Shown here piece after piece: positions 26 to 11,948 of a DNA stretch of 33,590 nt. Each line of letters opens with the position of its first letter. Positions within the stretch are counted from its first letter, which is position 1. Under the pieces are notes generated by a model, which made no database searches, had not been told where the DNA came from, and saw only the letters and a program-made list of their open reading frames with translations. Source of the DNA: Candidatus Dojkabacteria bacterium (lineage in GTDB: Bacteria > Patescibacteriota > Dojkabacteria > SC72 > JAFGCJ01); contig JAFGIK010000002.1 in assembly GCA_016929645.1 (NCBI GenBank), positions 1 to 33,590 of the forward strand. Reading direction: 5' to 3'. Position numbers and translations under genes: made by a program.

Positions 26-79
26 GGTATCATTTCCCTTTGGATCTAATTATTCATTTCGGTATCATTTCCCATTGGA
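26..79. repeat. 19-nt near-exact direct repeat at the 3' end of the giant gene
   Basis: GGTATCATTTCCCNTTGGA occurs at 26-44 and 61-79, differing at one base, 35 bp apart. The inner copy encodes the last residues of the giant protein (WEMIP). The outer copy lies past its stop in another frame and would read EMIPKNGELS. It looks like a local duplication or a gene-end rearrangement. Confidence 0.7.
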
Positions 80-3000
80 CAAGACTAAGAGGAACAACAT
101 CTTCTACTGTTTCTCCAAGATCGAGTAGTAGATCTAATTTTCCTAGATCAAGATTTAGCATCATCTGGGCTTGTGATTCATACATATTTCTCCTGTTAGT
201 ATAAGATGGATCGAAGTATGTATCTTTTGGTTCTTTGCCTTTCCATATTAATCCTGATACTGAAGTGTTTCCTGCCATTTTTTGTGTGTCTGCAAACCTT
301 CTTATAAGACTGTCCTTTTTACCTTCCGCATTTGTTTGTTCAATATACATCATCACTAGTATAAATACTGGTATACTTCCGGATTTTGTATTTAAAAAAT
401 CAAGTTCTTGCGTGCTCAAAATTTCATTTTTGTTTATCTTTTCTGCAATTTCTTGTGCCTCTATTGCCTGATCTGATCCTATTACTCTTGTGTAATTAGG
501 GTTTGAATAAATATCATCAGATATCATATTTCTGATTCTTCCATATACTCCTCTATGGTCTTCCCTTAGAATCGCGTATGTTGCAAGTTTTATTGATTCT
601 GCTGCGTTACAAGCTTGAATGTACGGAAGATATTTTTTTTCTTCAGATATTCTGCTCCTGTCCTTTATTAATGGTATTTCATTTGATAGTACGACGCTTA
701 CCTGTTCTTGAATTAAGACTTTCTTCAGATCTTCTGGTGTTCCATGAAGGTAATCTACTGTAGCTGAGGAAAGACCTGACATTGTTAAACCTACGCTTGT
801 CATAGAGGCTGGTAATGGTGATGAGTAGAAATCGATTTTTTCTCCGTTTCCAAAATCATAAGTCGTATGGTGTTGGACTGGTAGCTTAAGCAATTCTCTT
901 TGTCCATCATTATCTCTAAAGTACCATTTCAGTTCCTGGCCAAGAATATTACGGGAAGTTGTCAATCCTGCCATTGAAATGTATGTTTGTTTTGAAATCA
1001 TTGCATCAAGTTCAGGTATTGTGCCATTTGGATCTCTGTATATCTGAATTCTTGTTGTTGTTGTTGAAAATTCTGTGATTTCTGTGTAACTAACTTCCGC
1101 AATTATTTTGCCTGTTACTGTGGCCGTAGTTTCTCCTTCTCTTTTTGACTTAACGGGTTCCTCAATTATTCGTTTTTTATATTTTTTCCCATCGATCTCT
1201 ACTACTGATGTTGTTATTACTTTTACTACACTTGGATCTTCAAAAATCTTTTGCCTGCCACTTCCAAAGTGTCCAAATCCCTTGATGCCGTCTGCGTCTT
1301 TTTCTTCGAATCCTGCCGTTGTATATCCTAATGTGCTTTCTATTCCTGTACCGTTATCTATTATCTCTTCAACATATAGTTCATCCTGATAGTAAAAATC
1401 AATGTCTAGTTCGCCTTCTGTTATCCTGTTTTGTCGAAGTAACTTGAGTATTGCATAAATGGAATTTTGAACTAACTCTCGTTTATCTATGCCTGGTGCA
1501 GCTGCTTGAGCAAGTATTGCACTTCGAACTCTGTTTCTTGCAAGTGTCAGGTCAAGACTTTCCATTGCAGCCTCTACTCCATTAAGCTCTTCTATTCTTC
1601 TGTTAATAGCATCAATAGTCCGATGTCCTTCTGTTAATGTTAGATATACAAGTAGCTCTGCGGGAATATTTGCTGGAAGTAAAGGAACCATTGGAGTTTC
1701 TGTTTCGGATTCTCTTACTCGTATGATCTGAGCTTCATTTGTAAGGAACAGTAAGAATGGTCTTATTGGATCAGTAATATCAAGCTTCGTTGCATTTCTG
1801 ATATCGTCTCCAAGAGAGCCACTATTGGTAATCAGTCTTTGCAACCTAATTGAATATGTTGGATTTGAGTATAATCTTACTAATTGTTTATAGAATAATT
1901 CTTTATCTTGTATATTTGCAAGCATTTCGCAGCATAATTTGATGACTGCGCTTCTATCTGAAATCTGGTCATACTGGTTAAATATACCCATAATTACTTC
2001 AATATTTTCTGGCGTCTCCTCCAGTAATGTATATGCTTTTTTTGAATAAAGAAATGACTCTATAAGATCTTCTGTCAGCTCTGCATTTGGGTAATCTGCA
2101 AGGTGGCTTATATTTGAGAAAAAATTGTATCTTAATATTTCTCTTTTATATTGTTCTTCTTGCTTTTCTTTAATTTTATTCCATACTCTTGATGCCAATG
2201 ATTGAAATTTATCAGATTCATATATTGCACTGAGTGTGCTTGCGGTTTCTGTTGCCTGGATAAGCTGATTTTTTGCTACAAGTTGCTCATCTTCCAATCC
2301 CTGTATTGCGTCAATTTTGATTACAGCTAATTTGTACAGGTTATATTGTTTAAAGAAGTTAGAATCGTTTTCTTTATATCCAAGATACTCACAAATTTCG
2401 TGATGAATATAATGGGAGAGAAGCGAAATTTCATCAGGAAATAATCTGATTGGTCCAGAAGTATCTATTGTTGATCCAACAAGTTTTCTATATTCAATGA
2501 TCTGTAAAGTACTCCATCTTGATGTATCAACTGTTGTTAGGTCGAATTTGTTAAATGCTTCGGAGTATAGACTTGGATGGACACCATGTTTTTCTGCAAT
2601 AGTGTTAGCTTTAATCTCAAATTTGTCCTGGTCATGTGGGGATAGCTGATCAAATAAATTATGAAGATATTCTGCAACACTATCGTTAGTTAGTTGTGTC
2701 GGTCTTGTTTCTTCAAGACCCATATGTTCGAGATCGAAGGTTTCTTTCAACGTTTCATATAATTCTTTCATAAAATCTGTATCCCAGGTATGCTTTAATT
2801 CCAGAAATTCGGAAAAGGGTGTTCTTCTGTTGATAATATCACCTGGCAATAGTTTGGGTCTTTCGTGACCCATTGATTCGATATCCTGAAGTGTTATTTT
2901 ATAGTAATTCCAGAAATTTTTAATAGTATCTGGACAGTCTTCTGCCATACCTAGGTTTCTTAAGAATGCTCGTTTATCTCTAATGCTCCAAAGTCCAGGT

Positions 3001-6000
3001 TCTTGTTTCTCTTGAAAGGTCCGTGCGAATTGTTTATCGTCTCTAAGTCGTATTGCGGCTGCATCTTCCTGATCATCTGACCCTTTTGCTGGTCGAATTA
3101 TGGCTGATACATATCTACGTCTTTGTGCTAATGACCATTTTGAAGTGTCTATATCAGAAGGTTCAGGGAATTGTCCTCTTGTTAATTGTGGATGTTGACC
3201 ATGTATGAAAAAAATTGTAGATAATTTAGCTTTGTAGATTTCAAATAATTTTTCGGGACTTGTATTATTTGGTAATCCTTGTAGAACTAGAAAATTGTTA
3301 AAATATCGATTGCTTGAATCTGGTAGAAGATCTTTGTCAGAAAACAGAGTGTAAATTTCAGCGTACATCTCGTTAATCTCTTCTTGGGAAAGAACCATAT
3401 TAGAGCCTCGGAACATGTTTATATATTCCAGTTTTATTTGAGGATTAACTTTGTCAGGATCAGGATACTCAGATGGATCCAACTCTTCTATTTGCAAGTA
3501 AGACGATTCTGTAAGAGCGTCAATTTGAAAATTATGACATCCGTGTCTTACTGTTATTTCTCTAAGTTTTTCTTTATATATATCGTAAACCCGGTAACGA
3601 TTGTCTTCAGTTACTTGAAGTCCCCAGTCTTGCAGAAAAGGGTCTGCTGTGCCTTCTGTGAGGATCTTTATTTTCATAGCAAATTTTCTATATTCTTCAA
3701 AAAAACGCATGTATTTTTCTGCATCCATAAAAGTTAAAGAATATGATGATGTTAAAAAAGTTTCTTTTGGGATGCCATCTTTTGTCCAGCCCATTTGTTC
3801 TAATTTTCTTTCTGTGCTTCCGTACCATTCTGTCGGATACCATAATTTAGCAATTTCTATCATCACTTCATCAGGAAAATCTCGGTAGTAATAGTCTGTT
3901 GGGTCAAGTAACTCAACATTTTCATAGTTACGTGATGTTTCTTGTGGTAACTGAATTGCTAAATCTTCTATGCTGCCTATCATTGCACCTGCTTTTACTT
4001 GTCTGCTGATTAAGACAGCCTCCTGTGCTAAATCTTCTCCTTCATTCTCTGTAAATATTTCTCTTAACGGATGTAGTACTTTGCCAGTAAGTCTTAAAAC
4101 ATCACTTGTCGTAGGGTTAATTACTGTTGTTGGTTGAAACCTCATTGAATCTTTTGTCCCCTCTGGTCTTAGCTCGTAAAGAGTTGAGTTTATTCTTATA
4201 ACAGATGAGCCTTGGGATTCGCTTGAAATCACATATGGATGCTCATCGTTTATTCGGGCAATAGGTATCATTTTAGATTCCGGATTGTTAGCATCCAGTA
4301 ATGCTAAGCCAGTATTATCTTTGAGCTCTACTAGAATATATGGATCTCCATTTAGACAAATTGTATCAAGAAATTTTGAAATAGTTTTATCTCCAATATA
4401 TTCCTGTATAATATCAATTGAATCCCGCTCAAGTGATGCTACTGAGAAATGATATCCCTCTTTATCTATCCAATATACCTTATTTTCAATGCATACGATA
4501 TTGTTCTCGGAATTTTTAGAAAGTTCGGGCATGTTACGTTCGGATGTGTTTCCAAAATCTTTTACCATAGAGTCTCTATAACGAACTTGTTGTTGTCTTA
4601 TATCTGCTTTATATAAAATATTTCCTGATGTGTCATATATTGCCCATATATTAGGGCTTGCAAATAAAACATTACCCTCCCTTGTTAAAATTATTTTGCA
4701 TTTGTTCTCCTCCTGTTCTCCTATCAACTCTTTTATGGTTTGGTCTGTTGATTTATATTCTACTTTTCCATCTGGCTTTATTATTAATCTTTCACCATTA
4801 TTAGCAAGTATATTCATACCTTCATCAGTTTGGGCGAAATTTCTAAACATGGTCTGACTAAATTGTTGTTGTGTTTCCACATGTATATAATTACCAGATA
4901 GATTATCGGTAATGTTTTTTCTAAATATTTGTTTCCCATCTTTGTCGTAAATTTCCAATATTCCATATCTATCAAAGTAATATGTGATATCTTTAATTGA
5001 CCAGATAATTGGGATATCTGTATTTGTTGATATCCGTTCATATTCTTTTGGTGTGAGTGTATTTTCCTGCTGGGTACTTTCATTTTCTTGTTCATCTTCT
5101 TGGGTACGATCTTTGTTTTTTAAATCGTGTTCAGCTTGTTTTTTCTCTGTTGAATTTGGTTTTTCTGTTGCAATGAATACTGATCTTTCATCTCTGGGAT
5201 TATATGATGTATAAAATATGTAGTTCATTAATACTTCCAGAGCTTCTTTCATCATTGCTCTACTTATCGGGTCCTGCTCGTCCTGGACAGATTTCCAAAT
5301 TTTCTGATCTACAATGACAATTTTTTTGGACTCATCAATAATTACAGGTAATACTTCGCTCATTGTTTGCCTCAGCAGTGATAAGCTTGCACCAGTTCTC
5401 ATTGCTATCATGAACTCATCTGGACTAATGTCTGATTCGATGTCTGCAGAAAGTGCTTTCCAACCATTTTTGAGCGTTACTCCATCTTTTATTCCAAGGC
5501 CAGCAAGTCCTTGACTTTCGAGAAGTTTATTTATGGTATCAAATCCGGTTACTCTTAGAAGATACGGATCCAAGTAATAGTTTATAGAATCAGCGCCGGT
5601 GATCCTTCCGTAAATACTTAGATTAGGAAAAAACATAATGCCTTTACTTTTTAATTGCCTGATATAATCTGCGCTAGCTTCTCTAACCTTGTGTCTTGAC
5701 CTATCTATAAGATTATTGAGCATATCAGCTCCATTTATTATGTTGTTGAATTCGACAACAATGCCATCCCCTCTGTCTTTTTCTTTTATAGCTGTTCCAA
5801 GTTGTTCTAATCCAAAAACCAAGCTGTTTAAAAATGCAGTTTTTTCCTGATCATCTATTTCTGTTGAGTTTAATACTTTCTGGACAATTATTGGCAAGCT
5901 TTCAACAAAATTTTCATCAATAACAAAACCTTCTCTGCCTTCTGATACTTTTATTATTCGTCCCATTTCAATTCCGATTGTGCTTAAGCAAAGATTTAGT

Positions 6001-7307
6001 CGGTCTTGAGGAATTGGTATTGAGAGTATCGATTCTCTATTTCGAGTAAAAACGATCCTTGAAACTTCTTCCTTCCTGAAGAGTACATCAGACTGTTCCG
6101 TGGCTATTTTCCTTGCCTCATCGAGAGATACGGCTTCAACACCTTTCCCGTAGTTTGGTATCAGAAGTTTTAGCATTGTTTCCCTATTCATCCCTTGCCC
6201 GTTATCTGAAATTTCTACACTGTCAGATGATATTGAAATATCAATGTTACCTTTTTGATCGATGGGCTTTTCTCTTCCAACTATTTTCATATCAGCAAAT
6301 CCATTTATTCTTTCGCCGTTAAGGTTTATATCTACTTCTGGTACGTAACGGAATTGATCTTTGATTCCTGTCAGAATTTCTGCAATTTCTTCTGGTGGAA
6401 TATTTATGCCTGAAACAGTGACACTTGTTCCCTGAGTATGTTCTCTTGGTTTTGTCTCTGGCGGATCAAATTTTATATATATTTTATCGTCATAACCTTT
6501 TCTTGCGCGCAATATATTACCTTGTGAACTGAATACGACTTCTCCTTGACCTGGCTGTAGCCATGTAAATAATTGTTTTACTCCAAGACCAAATTGTCCT
6601 ATTTTTTCCCTATCTGACAGTGAATCTATTGAATTAGAAATTGCTTCTTTTATTCCCTGGTGTCTTGGGTTGGCATTTTGTCGAAATAGTACATCTTCTA
6701 TGCGTTTTCTTGGGTATCCGTGTGAAAAAACTTCTCTAGCATTTTCAATTATTGTATCTCCGCTTGTAATTTTTTCGATTTGAGAAATTTTCTGAGTGCC
6801 TTGTTTTTGCGCCATTATTACTTCACCATAAGCTATTGCCATCTCCCATGGTACCCAGTTATACATGTGTGGATGTTCTTCTATTAAATCTCTGGGCTCA
6901 GGAGTTATTTCATGAAGACGGCCTATCACTGATCTGATATTCGTGTTTCCTATCATTGTATTTGCACCTTTATTGAGTGATTCTTGAAATTCTGGGAATG
7001 TTGGTGTGGATGCAATCTGTTGAATGTTACATAAGTACGATCCTAGTGTGATAACTCTGTTTGTTGTCGGATCAATAAAGTTTTCATTTTTTTCTGGATC
7101 ACAAAGATCCTGATATTCTGGTAGATTTTCTAGTCCTGGTATCAATATTCGCGTGTCGCTGCCTTCTTGCTCAGGAATGTATAGTTCCTCAAGGCTTTTA
7201 TCCCAATTCAGTGCTAGAAAATTTTTTCTTGCAAGACTCTCTTCTTTGGGCACGGATATTCGTTCTCTTGTTGTAATTTTTTCTGTTGTTGTTTGCTCAG
7301 TTATCAA
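54..7307 (-). CDS. Giant two-module GHKL ATPase-like protein (2417 aa)
   Basis: Cytoplasmic-looking, with no signal peptide or membrane segment. The N-terminal module has an N-box (E221-xxx-N225-xx-D228), a glycine-rich G2-like motif GQFGLG (237-242) and a GT motif (293-294). The DNGQGM G1-like motif (368-373) comes only after these. The C-terminal module has the normal order: E1944-xxx-N1948 (Asp of the N-box is Tyr1951), DNGTGI (1984-1989), GFGHFGSG (2010-2017), then a GT-rich strand near 2065. Between them are a charged low-complexity linker (about 710-755), a beta-strand-rich stretch that could be a propeller (about 760-1080), and four degenerate repeats centred on HG at 1255, 1369, 1481 and 1574. 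GHKL proteins use ATP binding to drive dimerisation or clamp closure (Hsp90, MutL, MORC, topoisomerases); the target here is unknown. The start is a TTG with no Shine-Dalgarno; no in-frame ATG lies upstream. Same strand as the next gene upstream, 120 bp apart. ATPase-like identity is fairly sure, function is not. Confidence 0.85.
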   Translation of the reverse strand: MITEQTTTEKITTRERISVPKEESLARKNFLALNWDKSLEELYIPEQEGSDTRILIPGLENLPEYQDLCDPEKNENFIDPTTNRVITLGSYLCNIQQIASTPTFPEFQESLNKGANTMIGNTNIRSVIGRLHEITPEPRDLIEEHPHMYNWVPWEMAIAYGEVIMAQKQGTQKISQIEKITSGDTIIENAREVFSHGYPRKRIEDVLFRQNANPRHQGIKEAISNSIDSLSDREKIGQFGLGVKQLFTWLQPGQGEVVFSSQGNILRARKGYDDKIYIKFDPPETKPREHTQGTSVTVSGINIPPEEIAEILTGIKDQFRYVPEVDINLNGERINGFADMKIVGREKPIDQKGNIDISISSDSVEISDNGQGMNRETMLKLLIPNYGKGVEAVSLDEARKIATEQSDVLFRKEEVSRIVFTRNRESILSIPIPQDRLNLCLSTIGIEMGRIIKVSEGREGFVIDENFVESLPIIVQKVLNSTEIDDQEKTAFLNSLVFGLEQLGTAIKEKDRGDGIVVEFNNIINGADMLNNLIDRSRHKVREASADYIRQLKSKGIMFFPNLSIYGRITGADSINYYLDPYLLRVTGFDTINKLLESQGLAGLGIKDGVTLKNGWKALSADIESDISPDEFMIAMRTGASLSLLRQTMSEVLPVIIDESKKIVIVDQKIWKSVQDEQDPISRAMMKEALEVLMNYIFYTSYNPRDERSVFIATEKPNSTEKKQAEHDLKNKDRTQEDEQENESTQQENTLTPKEYERISTNTDIPIIWSIKDITYYFDRYGILEIYDKDGKQIFRKNITDNLSGNYIHVETQQQFSQTMFRNFAQTDEGMNILANNGERLIIKPDGKVEYKSTDQTIKELIGEQEENKCKIILTREGNVLFASPNIWAIYDTSGNILYKADIRQQQVRYRDSMVKDFGNTSERNMPELSKNSENNIVCIENKVYWIDKEGYHFSVASLERDSIDIIQEYIGDKTISKFLDTICLNGDPYILVELKDNTGLALLDANNPESKMIPIARINDEHPYVISSESQGSSVIRINSTLYELRPEGTKDSMRFQPTTVINPTTSDVLRLTGKVLHPLREIFTENEGEDLAQEAVLISRQVKAGAMIGSIEDLAIQLPQETSRNYENVELLDPTDYYYRDFPDEVMIEIAKLWYPTEWYGSTERKLEQMGWTKDGIPKETFLTSSYSLTFMDAEKYMRFFEEYRKFAMKIKILTEGTADPFLQDWGLQVTEDNRYRVYDIYKEKLREITVRHGCHNFQIDALTESSYLQIEELDPSEYPDPDKVNPQIKLEYINMFRGSNMVLSQEEINEMYAEIYTLFSDKDLLPDSSNRYFNNFLVLQGLPNNTSPEKLFEIYKAKLSTIFFIHGQHPQLTRGQFPEPSDIDTSKWSLAQRRRYVSAIIRPAKGSDDQEDAAAIRLRDDKQFARTFQEKQEPGLWSIRDKRAFLRNLGMAEDCPDTIKNFWNYYKITLQDIESMGHERPKLLPGDIINRRTPFSEFLELKHTWDTDFMKELYETLKETFDLEHMGLEETRPTQLTNDSVAEYLHNLFDQLSPHDQDKFEIKANTIAEKHGVHPSLYSEAFNKFDLTTVDTSRWSTLQIIEYRKLVGSTIDTSGPIRLFPDEISLLSHYIHHEICEYLGYKENDSNFFKQYNLYKLAVIKIDAIQGLEDEQLVAKNQLIQATETASTLSAIYESDKFQSLASRVWNKIKEKQEEQYKREILRYNFFSNISHLADYPNAELTEDLIESFLYSKKAYTLLEETPENIEVIMGIFNQYDQISDRSAVIKLCCEMLANIQDKELFYKQLVRLYSNPTYSIRLQRLITNSGSLGDDIRNATKLDITDPIRPFLLFLTNEAQIIRVRESETETPMVPLLPANIPAELLVYLTLTEGHRTIDAINRRIEELNGVEAAMESLDLTLARNRVRSAILAQAAAPGIDKRELVQNSIYAILKLLRQNRITEGELDIDFYYQDELYVEEIIDNGTGIESTLGYTTAGFEEKDADGIKGFGHFGSGRQKIFEDPSVVKVITTSVVEIDGKKYKKRIIEEPVKSKREGETTATVTGKIIAEVSYTEITEFSTTTTRIQIYRDPNGTIPELDAMISKQTYISMAGLTTSRNILGQELKWYFRDNDGQRELLKLPVQHHTTYDFGNGEKIDFYSSPLPASMTSVGLTMSGLSSATVDYLHGTPEDLKKVLIQEQVSVVLSNEIPLIKDRSRISEEKKYLPYIQACNAAESIKLATYAILREDHRGVYGRIRNMISDDIYSNPNYTRVIGSDQAIEAQEIAEKINKNEILSTQELDFLNTKSGSIPVFILVMMYIEQTNAEGKKDSLIRRFADTQKMAGNTSVSGLIWKGKEPKDTYFDPSYTNRRNMYESQAQMMLNLDLGKLDLLLDLGETVEDVVPLSLVQWEMIPK

Positions 7308-8673: not shown

Positions 8674-9945
8674 TCACTGTTCTACTAAATCAAGTATTTG
8701 AGTTTTGATTTCATTGTTGAATCCGGAAAACGACTCTCCTCCAACAAATATGAATGGATAATATTCGTAACTTGTTGATACTCCCTGACTTGTTGGATTA
8801 TTGGCCTTATACTTTTGTAATTCAGTTGAATAATCTGAGTCAGTATTTAAATGTTCCTCGTAAGCAATGCTGTTATCTTTGAAAAACTGTAGTGCATCTA
8901 GACACATAGTTCCTGTATTGTTATGGAAGATAACAACTGAATTATCTATGGAATCATCTTGACTTGGACTTTCACTTGATTCTCCATCATTTAAATTTTC
9001 CACCTTGCAAGGATTTATGACATTTTCCTCATCCTCGTAAGGGATTGCAGGTCGAATTTTCTCTGGAGTATACGGTGCATTTTTGTTTATTGGAATTTGC
9101 CATAATGGCATTGTTATATCTATAGTTCCCAAAGTATCAAGATCGACCCAGTCCACATCGTAATCCTCCCAAAAGGTGTGCCACATATCATTCCATCTTT
9201 CTTTATATCCACCAATATAAGTATGGGAAACTCCAATAAACTTCTCTTCTTGGATTGCTTGTTCAAATTCTTTTGTCATGTCTTCTGGGCTGCCACCTCT
9301 TTCGTAAAAACTATAGTCGCAAAAACTCCCATATTTAAATTCTGGAACATCGATATTTGACACTGATATTATTTTTACGTCGTATTCTTCCGGTTTATAT
9401 ACAGTCGTTGCAAGTTCTGTTGTACCTCTTGCTGTGATGTATTCAATTCCAAGTTCATCTGCAATTTTGACTGTATTCATATCTGATGCCATATATCTTG
9501 AAGAAATTATTCTGACATCAATATCTAAGGCATTCTCGATTCTTGATTTCATGTCTGATATGGTCTCGTATTGTTCGTCATAAGACATTTCCCAGTACGG
9601 TTGTTTGTCATAAGATGCAGCAATTTCAATGTTTCCTGTCTTAAGTATTTCCTTAATGGTATCTTTATTTGCTTCCACAAAATCTGCATTTACCATTAGA
9701 ATTCCGTATACGTTGTGTTCTTTCATGTCATTAACCATGTTTACCAGACCTTCAGTATTATTAAATTCAATTAGTAACATCATTGCTTTTGGTTTTGTCT
9801 CTGTCTCTATTCCTGATTCTTCTGTTAGGATATCATCTTTTGTATTGGGGCAGACAAGTTGTCTTACCAGGAAAAATTCTGCTAAAAGAAGAATGATTAC
9901 TCCTGTAATAATACCAATAGTTGCCGGCAGTTTTTTATTCATCAT
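8674..9945 (-). CDS. Membrane-anchored NodB-like domain fused to a glutaredoxin-like domain
   Basis: 423 residues. One membrane segment (about 8-27) anchors an outside-facing protein. Residues ~54-290 resemble the polysaccharide deacetylase (NodB) barrel, including SYDEQYETISDMKSRIENAL and the IADELGIEYIT strand-helix. The metal-binding residues are absent, though: the usual FDD is EFNN (60-63), the His pair is replaced around SYDKQ (111-115), and the RPPYG loop is SSRYM. It is probably not a deacetylase. After an acidic, Ser-rich linker, residues ~335-423 form a glutaredoxin-like domain: VVIFHNN, then GTMC (345-348) in the CPxC position, a YYPFIFVGG strand with cis-Pro397, and FSGFN. Only the second Cys (C348) remains. 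It is the last gene of a leftward run after an ArsR-type regulator. Fold calls are moderate; activity is unknown. Confidence 0.7.
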   Translation of the reverse strand: MMNKKLPATIGIITGVIILLLAEFFLVRQLVCPNTKDDILTEESGIETETKPKAMMLLIEFNNTEGLVNMVNDMKEHNVYGILMVNADFVEANKDTIKEILKTGNIEIAASYDKQPYWEMSYDEQYETISDMKSRIENALDIDVRIISSRYMASDMNTVKIADELGIEYITARGTTELATTVYKPEEYDVKIISVSNIDVPEFKYGSFCDYSFYERGGSPEDMTKEFEQAIQEEKFIGVSHTYIGGYKERWNDMWHTFWEDYDVDWVDLDTLGTIDITMPLWQIPINKNAPYTPEKIRPAIPYEDEENVINPCKVENLNDGESSESPSQDDSIDNSVVIFHNNTGTMCLDALQFFKDNSIAYEEHLNTDSDYSTELQKYKANNPTSQGVSTSYEYYPFIFVGGESFSGFNNEIKTQILDLVEQ

Positions 9946-9980
9946 TTAGAATAGTTAAAATTTAATTAATTTTTTTTACA

Positions 9981-10256
9981 TTAATTATTAATAAAACTTA
10001 GTAAAGATAAAATTCCCTTTTTCTGAGAGTTTACTAAACGATAAATTATATGTTGTCCATTGCGTTTACTCTCGATGTATTTCATATCGACCAGTGTTTT
10101 GAGATGATGTGAAATTAGATTATGTTTAAGTTTGAGTTGTTTGACAATTTGACATACGCATGTGTCTTTTTGGGCTAGTAGAGAGAGTATTTTAATTCTA
10201 TTTGTTACGAGTAGTTTCTGGAGATTTTTTATTCTTTCTGTTGTGGATACTTTCAT
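9981..10256 (-). CDS. ArsR-family transcriptional regulator
   Basis: 91 residues with a winged helix-turn-helix: RIKILSLLAQ, then DTCVCQIVKQL (the ELCVCDL metal-sensing helix of ArsR/SmtB proteins, Cys in CVC kept), the recognition helix KHNLISHHLKTL, and the wing IESKRNGQHIIYRL. Members usually repress their own operon and release DNA when metal(loid) or a thiol oxidant binds the Cys pair. The ATG is four bases from a perfect 54-bp palindrome, a natural operator. The gene lies between the UPF0251 gene and the NodB/glutaredoxin-like gene, both on the same strand, so its target may be that redox protein rather than an arsenic pump; no arsenic gene is present. Confidence 0.88.
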   Translation of the reverse strand: MKVSTTERIKNLQKLLVTNRIKILSLLAQKDTCVCQIVKQLKLKHNLISHHLKTLVDMKYIESKRNGQHIIYRLVNSQKKGILSLLSFINN

Positions 10257-10260
10257 CGGT

Positions 10261-10314
10261 ATGTGCCTGAGTGATATATTTCAATATATATTGAAATATA
10301 TCACTCAGGCACAT
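10261..10314. promoter_or_regulatory. Perfect 54-bp palindrome upstream of arsR-type gene
   Basis: The two 27-base arms (10261-10287 and 10288-10314) are exact reverse complements with no spacer. The core ATTTCAATATATATTGAAAT resembles ArsR/SmtB-family operators; the outer arms are ATGTGCCTGAGTGATAT and its complement. It lies between the stop of the UPF0251 gene (10334) and the regulator's ATG (10256). In RNA it would be a long hairpin just before the start codon. No U-tract follows on either strand, so it does not look like a simple terminator. Confidence 0.85.
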
Positions 10315-10333
10315 TTCAGTCAATACTGAGATG

Positions 10334-10615
10334 TTAATCATTTGATTTTCGTATATTTATTGCATAACCTTCTATTAGTGCTTTTGTAATTTTTTCAAGA
10401 GCTGCTGATAGATCTCTTTGATACTGGCTTTGTGAGATTCCCATTTTTTTTGATGCTTCGTTTTGCTCCTCCTTCTCTATGTATCTTAATCTCAATGTCT
10501 CGATTTCGTCATATGATATTGATATTTCATTAAGATTCTTTAATGGTATACCTCTTGGTTTAAAGTATATTTCATTAAAATTGAAACCTAATCTTCTTCT
10601 GCATCTTTGTCTCAT
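10334..10615 (-). CDS. UPF0251/DUF134 DNA-binding protein
   Basis: 93 residues matching the UPF0251 (DUF134) pattern: an RCRRR start, YFKPRGIPLKNLNEI, DEIETLRLRYIE, then a helix-turn-helix like sigma region 4 (NEASKKMGISQSQYQRDLSAALEKITKAL) and a closing EGYAINI strand. Family members are predicted DNA-binding regulators often found beside small Cys-rich or NifX/NifB-like proteins. Here it follows a Cys-rich zinc-ribbon protein, after a 15-bp hairpin, and precedes the ArsR-type regulator. Family call firm; target unknown. Confidence 0.88.
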   Translation of the reverse strand: MRQRCRRRLGFNFNEIYFKPRGIPLKNLNEISISYDEIETLRLRYIEKEEQNEASKKMGISQSQYQRDLSAALEKITKALIEGYAINIRKSND

Positions 10616-10640
10616 AATGAATTTAAAATGAAATTAACAT

Positions 10641-10674
10641 AAAAGAGTAGAAATAGTATTATTTCTACTCTTTT
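10641..10674 (-). terminator. Hairpin terminator between zinc-ribbon and UPF0251 genes
   Basis: AAAAGAGTAGAAATA (10641-10655) pairs perfectly with 10660-10674 around the loop GTAT. The arms end in A4 and T4, so the hairpin could terminate in either direction, though no long T run follows it. It sits 13 bp past the stop of the zinc-ribbon gene and 26 bp before the UPF0251 start. Confidence 0.6.
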
Positions 10675-10687
10675 GACAGGGTGTGAT

Positions 10688-10912
10688 TTAAGCACAAAAG
10701 ATTCCATTCATCATTGTACCGCATTTAGGACACTTTTTTTCTGTACAGGGTATGCCTCTCGTATGCGCTTCTTTATATCCACATTTAGGGCAAGTGCAAA
10801 ATTTGGTTCCGCCTTGTCTTCTTCCTGGTGTTTGTTTTTGTAATCGCCTATTAACCTGTCTTCTTCCTATTATTTCCGGTCTATTAGGTCCTGTTCCATC
10901 AAATCTTGGCAT
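10688..10912 (-). CDS. Small zinc-ribbon protein with MPRFDGTGP start
   Basis: 74 residues from the ATG at 10912. An upstream in-frame extension to 10984 is open, but MPRFDGTGP matches the conserved start of a family of small proteins (DUF5320-like, MPxFDGTGPxGxGPxTG) found near UPF0251 genes. The C-terminal half has CTCPKCGY and EKKCPKCGTMM, two CPxCG knuckles for one zinc site, plus further Cys. The basic middle (RRQVNRRLQ, PGRRQGG) could touch nucleic acid. The role of the family is unknown; neighbours point to metal/Fe-S or redox handling. Confidence 0.75.
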   Translation of the reverse strand: MPRFDGTGPNRPEIIGRRQVNRRLQKQTPGRRQGGTKFCTCPKCGYKEAHTRGIPCTEKKCPKCGTMMNGIFCA

Positions 10913-11032
10913 AATATAACTAATTAAATTTATATACGGGTATGTACCCGTGCGTATATTACCTGATCTGTTGCTGTGGGTCAATACCCATTTTGACTTG
11001 AAAATCTTTTGAATTAATTTGTAAAAGATATT

Positions 11033-11041
11033 TGCTATAAT
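11033..11041 (+). promoter_or_regulatory. Extended -10 promoter for the carotenoid operon
   Basis: TGCTATAAT is an extended -10 element. The best -35 (TTGAAT, 11009-11014) is 21 bp away, too far, so the TG may compensate. A transcript from here would have a leader of about 140 nt before the ATG at 11190, containing a four-codon reading frame (11152-11166) behind GTGAGG. Confidence 0.4.
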
Positions 11042-11189
11042 TCAATTATATTATTGTAATTTTGGATTAATAATAAGTTTATTTGTTACGTTATATATTT
11101 TTGCTTTTATATAAACAACGAAATTTTTGGCTTTGTGAGGTAATATTGTAATGTCATCGAAGTAGTTAATTTTAAATTTGTACTATATT

Positions 11190-11948
11190 ATGAAACTTAT
11201 AAAAGTTGACGCATCAAATGTTGATAAGTATGGATTCTTTTGCAGGATGAGCAAAATGAAAACTAAAGGAAATCAGGACAAAATGAACTGGCTTACTGAT
11301 AGATTTAAAGAAGGACTGGTCATGCAGCTTCTTGATTTAAAAGACGGTGGACGTGGCTATATTGAATATATTCCTGGAGAATATTGTTGGAGAGCTATAA
11401 ACGCAGATGGATATATGGTTATTCATTGCTTGTGGGTTGTTGGTAAAAGTCAGAATAAGGGCTATGGTAAGCTTCTGATTGAAAAATGTATTGCTGACGC
11501 CAAACAACAAAAGATGAAGGGTGTTGCAATGTTGACTAGTGAGAAGACATGGCTTGCTAAAAAAGGATTTCTGGAGAAAATGGGTTTTGAATCTGTCTCT
11601 GAGTCTGATGACAAAGTTTTCAATATTATGGTTTTGCCATTTGATAAATCTGATAAACCAACATTTTCTGGCAATTTTGAAAAGAAAGCAGCTGCTTATA
11701 AAGATGGATTTACTGTATTTATGACTCATCAGTGTCCCTATATTGATGATGCTGCCAAGGTTGTAGAAGAATATGCTAGAAAAAAGGGATTACCTTTCAA
11801 AACCGTAGAGCTGACTTCTGCAAAAGAAGTTAGAGAATTATGTCCTTCCCCTTATGGAACTTTTAGTATTGTGTACAATGGTAAACTATTAAGTTATACC
11901 TACTTGTTGGAAAAGGATCTTGATGAGCTTGTTTCTGGAGGTCGATAA
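11190..11948 (+). CDS. YoaP-like GNAT acetyltransferase with thioredoxin-fold tail
   Basis: 252 residues from the ATG at 11190 (a TTG at 11178 is also in frame). Residues ~1-150 are a GNAT domain; QNKGYGKLL (88-96) is the acetyl-CoA pyrophosphate loop, followed by the MLTSEKTWLAKKGFLEKMGF helix-strand. Residues ~170-252 match the YoaP C-terminal domain: a thioredoxin-like fold with FMTHQCPYI, where the second Cys of CxxC is Ile, and SPYGTFSIVYNG in the cis-Pro region. The substrate of YoaP proteins is not established. It is the first gene of a rightward run with the two carotenoid genes (23-bp gap), although no biochemical link between GNAT and carotenoid steps is evident. Confidence 0.82.
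   Translation: MKLIKVDASNVDKYGFFCRMSKMKTKGNQDKMNWLTDRFKEGLVMQLLDLKDGGRGYIEYIPGEYCWRAINADGYMVIHCLWVVGKSQNKGYGKLLIEKCIADAKQQKMKGVAMLTSEKTWLAKKGFLEKMGFESVSESDDKVFNIMVLPFDKSDKPTFSGNFEKKAAAYKDGFTVFMTHQCPYIDDAAKVVEEYARKKGLPFKTVELTSAKEVRELCPSPYGTFSIVYNGKLLSYTYLLEKDLDELVSGGR

Follow-up and report, generated by a model that had tools for sequence, protein, structure and literature searches.

The window, i.e. the whole stretch of 33,590 nucleotides analysed here, comes from a contig of a Candidatus Dojkabacteria bacterium. A repeat search of the window detected a perfect palindrome of 54 bp without a spacer at 10261-10314, the overlapping arms 10261-10288 and 10287-10314 being 100% complementary. Its end is located 4 bp before the ATG of an ArsR/SmtB-type gene on the minus strand. 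The neighbouring genes are all encoded on the minus strand in the order zinc-ribbon-like ORF, DUF134 gene, palindrome, arsR and deacetylase-like gene. The features of the locus are as follows.

10688-10984, minus strand: zinc-ribbon-like ORF (ORF list)
10334..10615, minus strand: DUF134 gene (PF02001), upstream, a possible source of read-through RNA (ORF and Pfam match)
10318..10323, minus strand: predicted -35 box TTGACT (consensus scan)
10301..10314, minus strand: outer arm on the promoter side, within the 17-nt spacer between -35 and -10
10295..10300, minus strand: predicted -10 box TATATT, the left end of the 12-2-12 site (consensus scan)
10288, minus strand: predicted transcription start, 7 nt past the -10 box (from promoter spacing)
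10261..10314, no strand assigned: perfect palindrome without spacer (repeat search; single place in the genome)
10275..10300, no strand assigned: proposed ArsR operator, a central 26-bp site of 12-2-12 form (pairing and relatives)
10261..10274, minus strand: outer arm on the leader side, within the predicted 5' untranslated leader
9981..10256, minus strand: ArsR/SmtB-type repressor gene, 91 aa, with Cys33-Val-Cys35 (ORF and domain matches)
8674..9945, minus strand: polysaccharide-deacetylase-like gene (PF01522), downstream (ORF and Pfam match)

The product of the 91-aa ORF matched PF01022 with 47.4 bits (cut-off 22, E 1.8e-12) and the ArsR/SmtB metalloregulator model NF033788 with 63.2 bits (cut-off 55), and by these matches is a member of the ArsR family. 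The matches and the repeat search thus confirmed the original prediction of a perfect, spacerless 54-bp palindrome in front of an ArsR-type gene. Cys33 and Cys35 were invariant across 10 aligned sequences and are putative metal(loid) ligands; use of Cys residues of helix 3 is reported for E. coli ArsR (PMC5116461). Because the gap between arsR and the deacetylase-like gene is only 35 bp and a deacetylase-like ORF also follows arsR in L004, L006, L007 and L008 (by eye), the two genes probably form one operon. The C-terminal part of the deacetylase-like protein (8674-9945) resembled a glutaredoxin/thioredoxin fold by eye, Pfam having matched the deacetylase part only. Together with the thioredoxin-like and CcdA-like ORFs that follow arsR in L003 (by eye) this suggests a thiol-redox operon. 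On the other side of the palindrome a DUF134-like ORF precedes arsR codirectionally in L003, L004 and L006 as well (by eye). A terminator-like hairpin on the minus strand (10641-10674, 15-bp perfect arms, 4-nt loop) lies between the zinc-ribbon-like ORF and the DUF134 gene; because it precedes the latter, DUF134 may depend on read-through or on a promoter of its own. Further away, at 54-7307, the window has a minus-strand ORF of 2417 aa.

The exact 54-mer occurred at a single place in the genome (1,586,902 bases in 109 contigs). A search with the 22-bp core at up to 3 mismatches found no second place in the genome, and a repeat family or mobile element was rejected on the basis of both searches. 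The next longest perfect palindrome of the host genome had 28 bp (L092 4830-4857, contig C8) in a sample of 172,738 bases including 7,957 N, which consisted of the window and 20 further stretches. In 20 second-order Markov simulations of 164,781 bases the longest palindrome was 32 bp and appeared only once. At the given base composition the probability of 27 consecutive pairs by chance is 5e-16, and the expectation for the window is 1.8e-11. Thus a chance origin of the palindrome is excluded. In 81 loci of other genomes (306 kb, partly overlapping) the longest perfect palindrome was 34 bp, found in another genome of the phylum (L076 1895-1928). A length of around 50 bp is tolerated in palindromes. 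The original prediction had called palindromes of this length rare and unstable in replication; rarity was borne out by the host sample, yet the claim of instability was overstated, as the lethal example from the literature is a palindrome of 460 bp in SbcCD-containing E. coli (PMC4245961). The palindrome is real and rare, and it is built from known parts.

We searched 85 genomes of the class for arsR; 27 matched at E 0.001, the host genome included, and 13 relatives, down to E 1.3e-13, were compared. The ArsR alignment led to 24 named loci. Eight of them are labelled Candidatus Dojkabacteria, including seven of the best nine, and the remaining two of the nine are labelled only 'bacterium'. 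The set of 85 was without a genome of the same genus, and the arsR search found no match in G001, the member of the same family; the event proposed below for the arms is therefore not datable. In viral contigs 89 stretches matched a pattern, none of which was confirmed as a relative of the ArsR protein.

The centre of the palindrome has the form expected of an operator. The motif TTTCAA-N6-TTGAAA at 10279-10296, in the following referred to as the heart, was present before the ArsR gene in 10 of the 13 relatives (L003-L008, L010, L027, L029, L030). It had one mismatch in L009 and two in L028, and no comparable core was seen by eye before the ArsR gene of L011. The heart was kept although the surrounding genes differ among the relatives (by eye). 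The 12-2-12 pairing was 12/12 in the window versus 8-11/12 in the ten relatives with an exact heart. Remoter ArsR genes had other half-sites at about the same place, TATCAA..TTGATA or TATGAA..TTCATA (by eye), which would fit a site that changes along with its protein. Sites of 12-2-12 form, near or over transcription starts, are described for SmtB/ArsR proteins, and the operator-promoters of smtA, ziaA and nmtA share with the window the 26-bp site, the overlap with the promoter and the position directly before the regulator gene (PMC8790569). The window differs in that its 12-2-12 site is perfect and the perfection continues for 14 bp more on each side. The pairing and the conserved heart support the assignment of the core as a predicted ArsR operator, as originally proposed. 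A wider regulon did not emerge from a scan of the genome: the heart with at most one mismatch gave 46 places versus 34 in the reversed control, and the sole other exact heart was situated within a 309-aa ORF on contig C58. Further targets may exist among the remaining 44 places, which have one mismatch.

The core overlaps a match to a sigma70-type promoter, TTGACT-17-TATATT, at 10323..10295 of the minus strand, and the centre of the palindrome (10287.5) coincides with the predicted transcription start at 10288. The promoter scan overall was no better than chance with 6 sites compared with 7.2 in shuffles; hence it is the conserved position that supports the promoter, TTGAC being found at the matching distance in 9 of the 10 exact-heart relatives (by eye). 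The possibility that a TATA box within the palindrome belongs to an archaeal promoter was considered and dropped, in view of the TTGACT/TATATT match and because seven of the nine best named relatives are labelled Candidatus Dojkabacteria.

The outer arms behaved differently from the core. In the window all 18 positions beyond the 18-bp heart were paired, and so were all 14 of the outer arms (positions 5-18). In the ten exact-heart relatives the outer arms had 4, 4, 4, 7, 7, 2, 5, 1, 4 and 6 of 14 pairs, i.e. fully mirrored arms were found in none of them. Counted outward from the heart, pairing continued without a break for 7 positions at most, in L027, whose mirror symmetry reaches three positions past the 26-bp site. 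Among the genomes compared, long perfect arms were thus seen in the host genome only. The comparison of the locus with relatives, which had been proposed together with the original prediction, gave the outcome that was named there as speaking against it: in ten relatives the core is conserved and the arms are not. On the other hand, the notion that the outer arms exceed the need of an operator gained support from the pairing in the window and in the relatives.

For a broader view 178 distinct stretches in front of ArsR genes were surveyed with a profile from A1 at E 1e-4, after duplicates and fronts below 130 nt had been dropped. The perfect palindrome of the window was the longest, followed by one of 28 bp in L143. 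Perfect arms of at least 24 bp were present in 2 of the 178 fronts, i.e. the window and L061, compared with 0 of 175 control stretches located 190 nt further up, in which perfect palindromes did not exceed 22 bp and arm scores peaked at 16. ArsR fronts generally carried longer inverted repeats than the controls, which is expected for operators; some of these repeats are likely terminators of the preceding gene. In L061 (Pleionea sediminis) perfect 24-bp arms surround 4 bp at 2908-2959. On the right the repeat extends up to position 2959, the predicted GTG start of a further ArsR-type gene, after which a GAPDH-like ORF comes next.

We favor, with somewhat better than even confidence, the view that an autoregulatory ArsR/SmtB operator-promoter has grown into a longer palindrome and that the outer arms are most likely a product of mutation. 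A repressor dimer would bind to the central 26-bp site and cover the -10 box and the transcription start. Thereby it would silence its own operon, which comprises arsR and probably also the downstream deacetylase-like gene. Release of the repressor would come from an inducer perceived by the Cys-Val-Cys motif, probably either a thiol-binding metal(loid) or a redox signal. The arms would have arisen by a template switch of replication at the hairpin-prone operator, which would copy one flank in inverted form onto the other, a process known as quasipalindrome correction. Template switching that renders quasipalindromes perfect by copying one arm is described for E. coli (PMC7202029) and for yeast (PMC3820800). 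In the window the event is deduced by comparison, and it would have altered a promoter and leader. Perfect inverted repeats are also reported from mitochondrial genes of nematomorphs, for which repeat conversion and template switching are considered by the authors; unlike the one regulatory site of the window, those repeats are coding, numerous and up to 284 bp long (PMC6649704).

The copied flank would more likely be the promoter spacer, mirrored onto the leader side. We lean towards this direction on mixed evidence from comparisons anchored at the core. The promoter-side arm, which is constrained by its role as a spacer, matched the spacers of all 10 exact-heart relatives at 46 of 140 positions compared with 35.1 in shuffles (p 0.024), mainly on account of L005 (9/14, p 0.004) and L004 (8/14, p 0.011). 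The leader-side arm showed no resemblance to the leaders of the relatives, with matches at 37 of 140 positions (p 0.34). With 9 relatives the p-value of the anchored test was 0.057, and when gaps were allowed, in a comparison with 11 relatives, neither side showed a signal (p 0.92 and 0.33). Furthermore, ACTCAG is common to L028 and the leader-side arm (p 0.057), which counts against copying from the promoter side to the leader.

Does the palindrome act at the level of RNA, as the original prediction suggested? If transcription begins near 10288, at the palindrome's centre, the arsR mRNA would include just one of the arms. Folding of this predicted transcript, taken as 53 or 51 nt from the centre on, gave -2.1 kcal/mol and showed no excess stability over shuffled sequences (z 0.67 and 0.73). 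A search of Rfam at gathering thresholds gave no match within the window, and there was no intrinsic terminator at the palindrome, the scan of 9900-11200 having listed two terminator-like sites, both elsewhere. For the predicted own transcript an RNA switch or attenuator in the arsR leader was rejected because of the single, unfolded arm and the lack of an Rfam match. RNA arriving by read-through was predicted to behave differently, with -38 kcal/mol in 54 nt and, over 101 nt, a 25-bp hairpin of -44.7 kcal/mol (z -10.15). Consequently, RNA-level action was not supported as a general mechanism, but is possible in read-through RNA.

These folding data are an argument for the outer arms having a function, either by binding extra repressor dimers or another protein, or by a read-through hairpin that hides the start region of arsR such that arsR is translated only from RNA of its own promoter. 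The 58-nt fold of the window at -39.0 kcal/mol stands out against -3.6 to -13.3 kcal/mol for the equivalents in 12 relatives; all 14 outer pairs are perfect, and the codirectional DUF134 gene is shared with three relatives. Yet the arms are unmirrored in the ten exact-heart relatives and the predicted own transcript is devoid of the hairpin. Moreover, the 17-bp outer sequence had no copy elsewhere in the genome at up to 2 mismatches (two places at 3, control 0). Thus we regard functional arms as unlikely; insulation of arsR from read-through translation by the hairpin is possible and was not seen in relatives. The palindrome might instead be an artefact of assembly or library preparation, the leader-side arm being a fold-back copy of the promoter side that is absent from the organism. 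The genome is a draft of 109 contigs, and a short inverted repeat can also give rise to fold-back copying in vitro. However, the mirror symmetry ends after 27 bp on each side and gives way to distinct unique flanks that contain, respectively, the -35 box and an intact conserved ORF. Rejoining of the other flank is not expected of a simple fold-back chimera, and an artefact is therefore very improbable. Least probable is a chromosome end or recombination site of the protelomerase type. Protelomerase targets are perfect palindromes of about 54 bp, so length, perfect symmetry and the single place in the genome would fit. But the host genome, which is 94.7% complete, has no match to PF16684 (0/1; controls match in 1/14), the contig continues through the palindrome, and an ArsR operator already explains the centre.

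If growth of an operator by mutation is the right explanation, the locus is a natural case of an operator lengthened to a perfect palindrome with its promoter kept, from an uncultured member of the Dojkabacteria group. The locus and its relatives would also supply matched core-only and extended sequences for testing whether the added symmetry matters. It would also caution against reading every long palindrome in front of a gene as an RNA switch, since the transcription start can fall on its centre. DNA-protein crosslinks are said to stimulate template switching. A more far-reaching proposal is that repressor-bound operators are growth points of palindromes, where a stalled fork would mirror the spacer onto the leader and the resulting hairpin would insulate against read-through. 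It draws on the two ArsR fronts whose perfect arms measure at least 24 bp, compared with none of the controls, and on a 28-bp palindrome in L004 described below; we consider it speculative and rather improbable. Our literature search found no paper joining Dojkabacteria and ArsR, and none tying operator inverted repeats to quasipalindrome template switching, which does not imply absence from print.

Finally, inverted repeats of another type, GGGTA..TACCC-like, were observed at 10938-10949 and 10978-10989 in the minus-strand promoter of the zinc-ribbon and DUF134 genes. Similar repeats precede the zinc-ribbon-like ORF in L003, L004, L006 and L009, the four relatives compared. One repeat is located over the -35 region and the other downstream of the -10 region. 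The repeat of the -35 region reads GGGTATTGACCC in the window, L003 and L006, is one letter off in L009 and is absent in L004. The repeats may serve as an operator for the DUF134 protein. In L004 the second repeat is a perfect 28-bp palindrome (2327-2354), longer than its counterparts in the window, L003, L006 and L009, and is possibly a second operator that grew.
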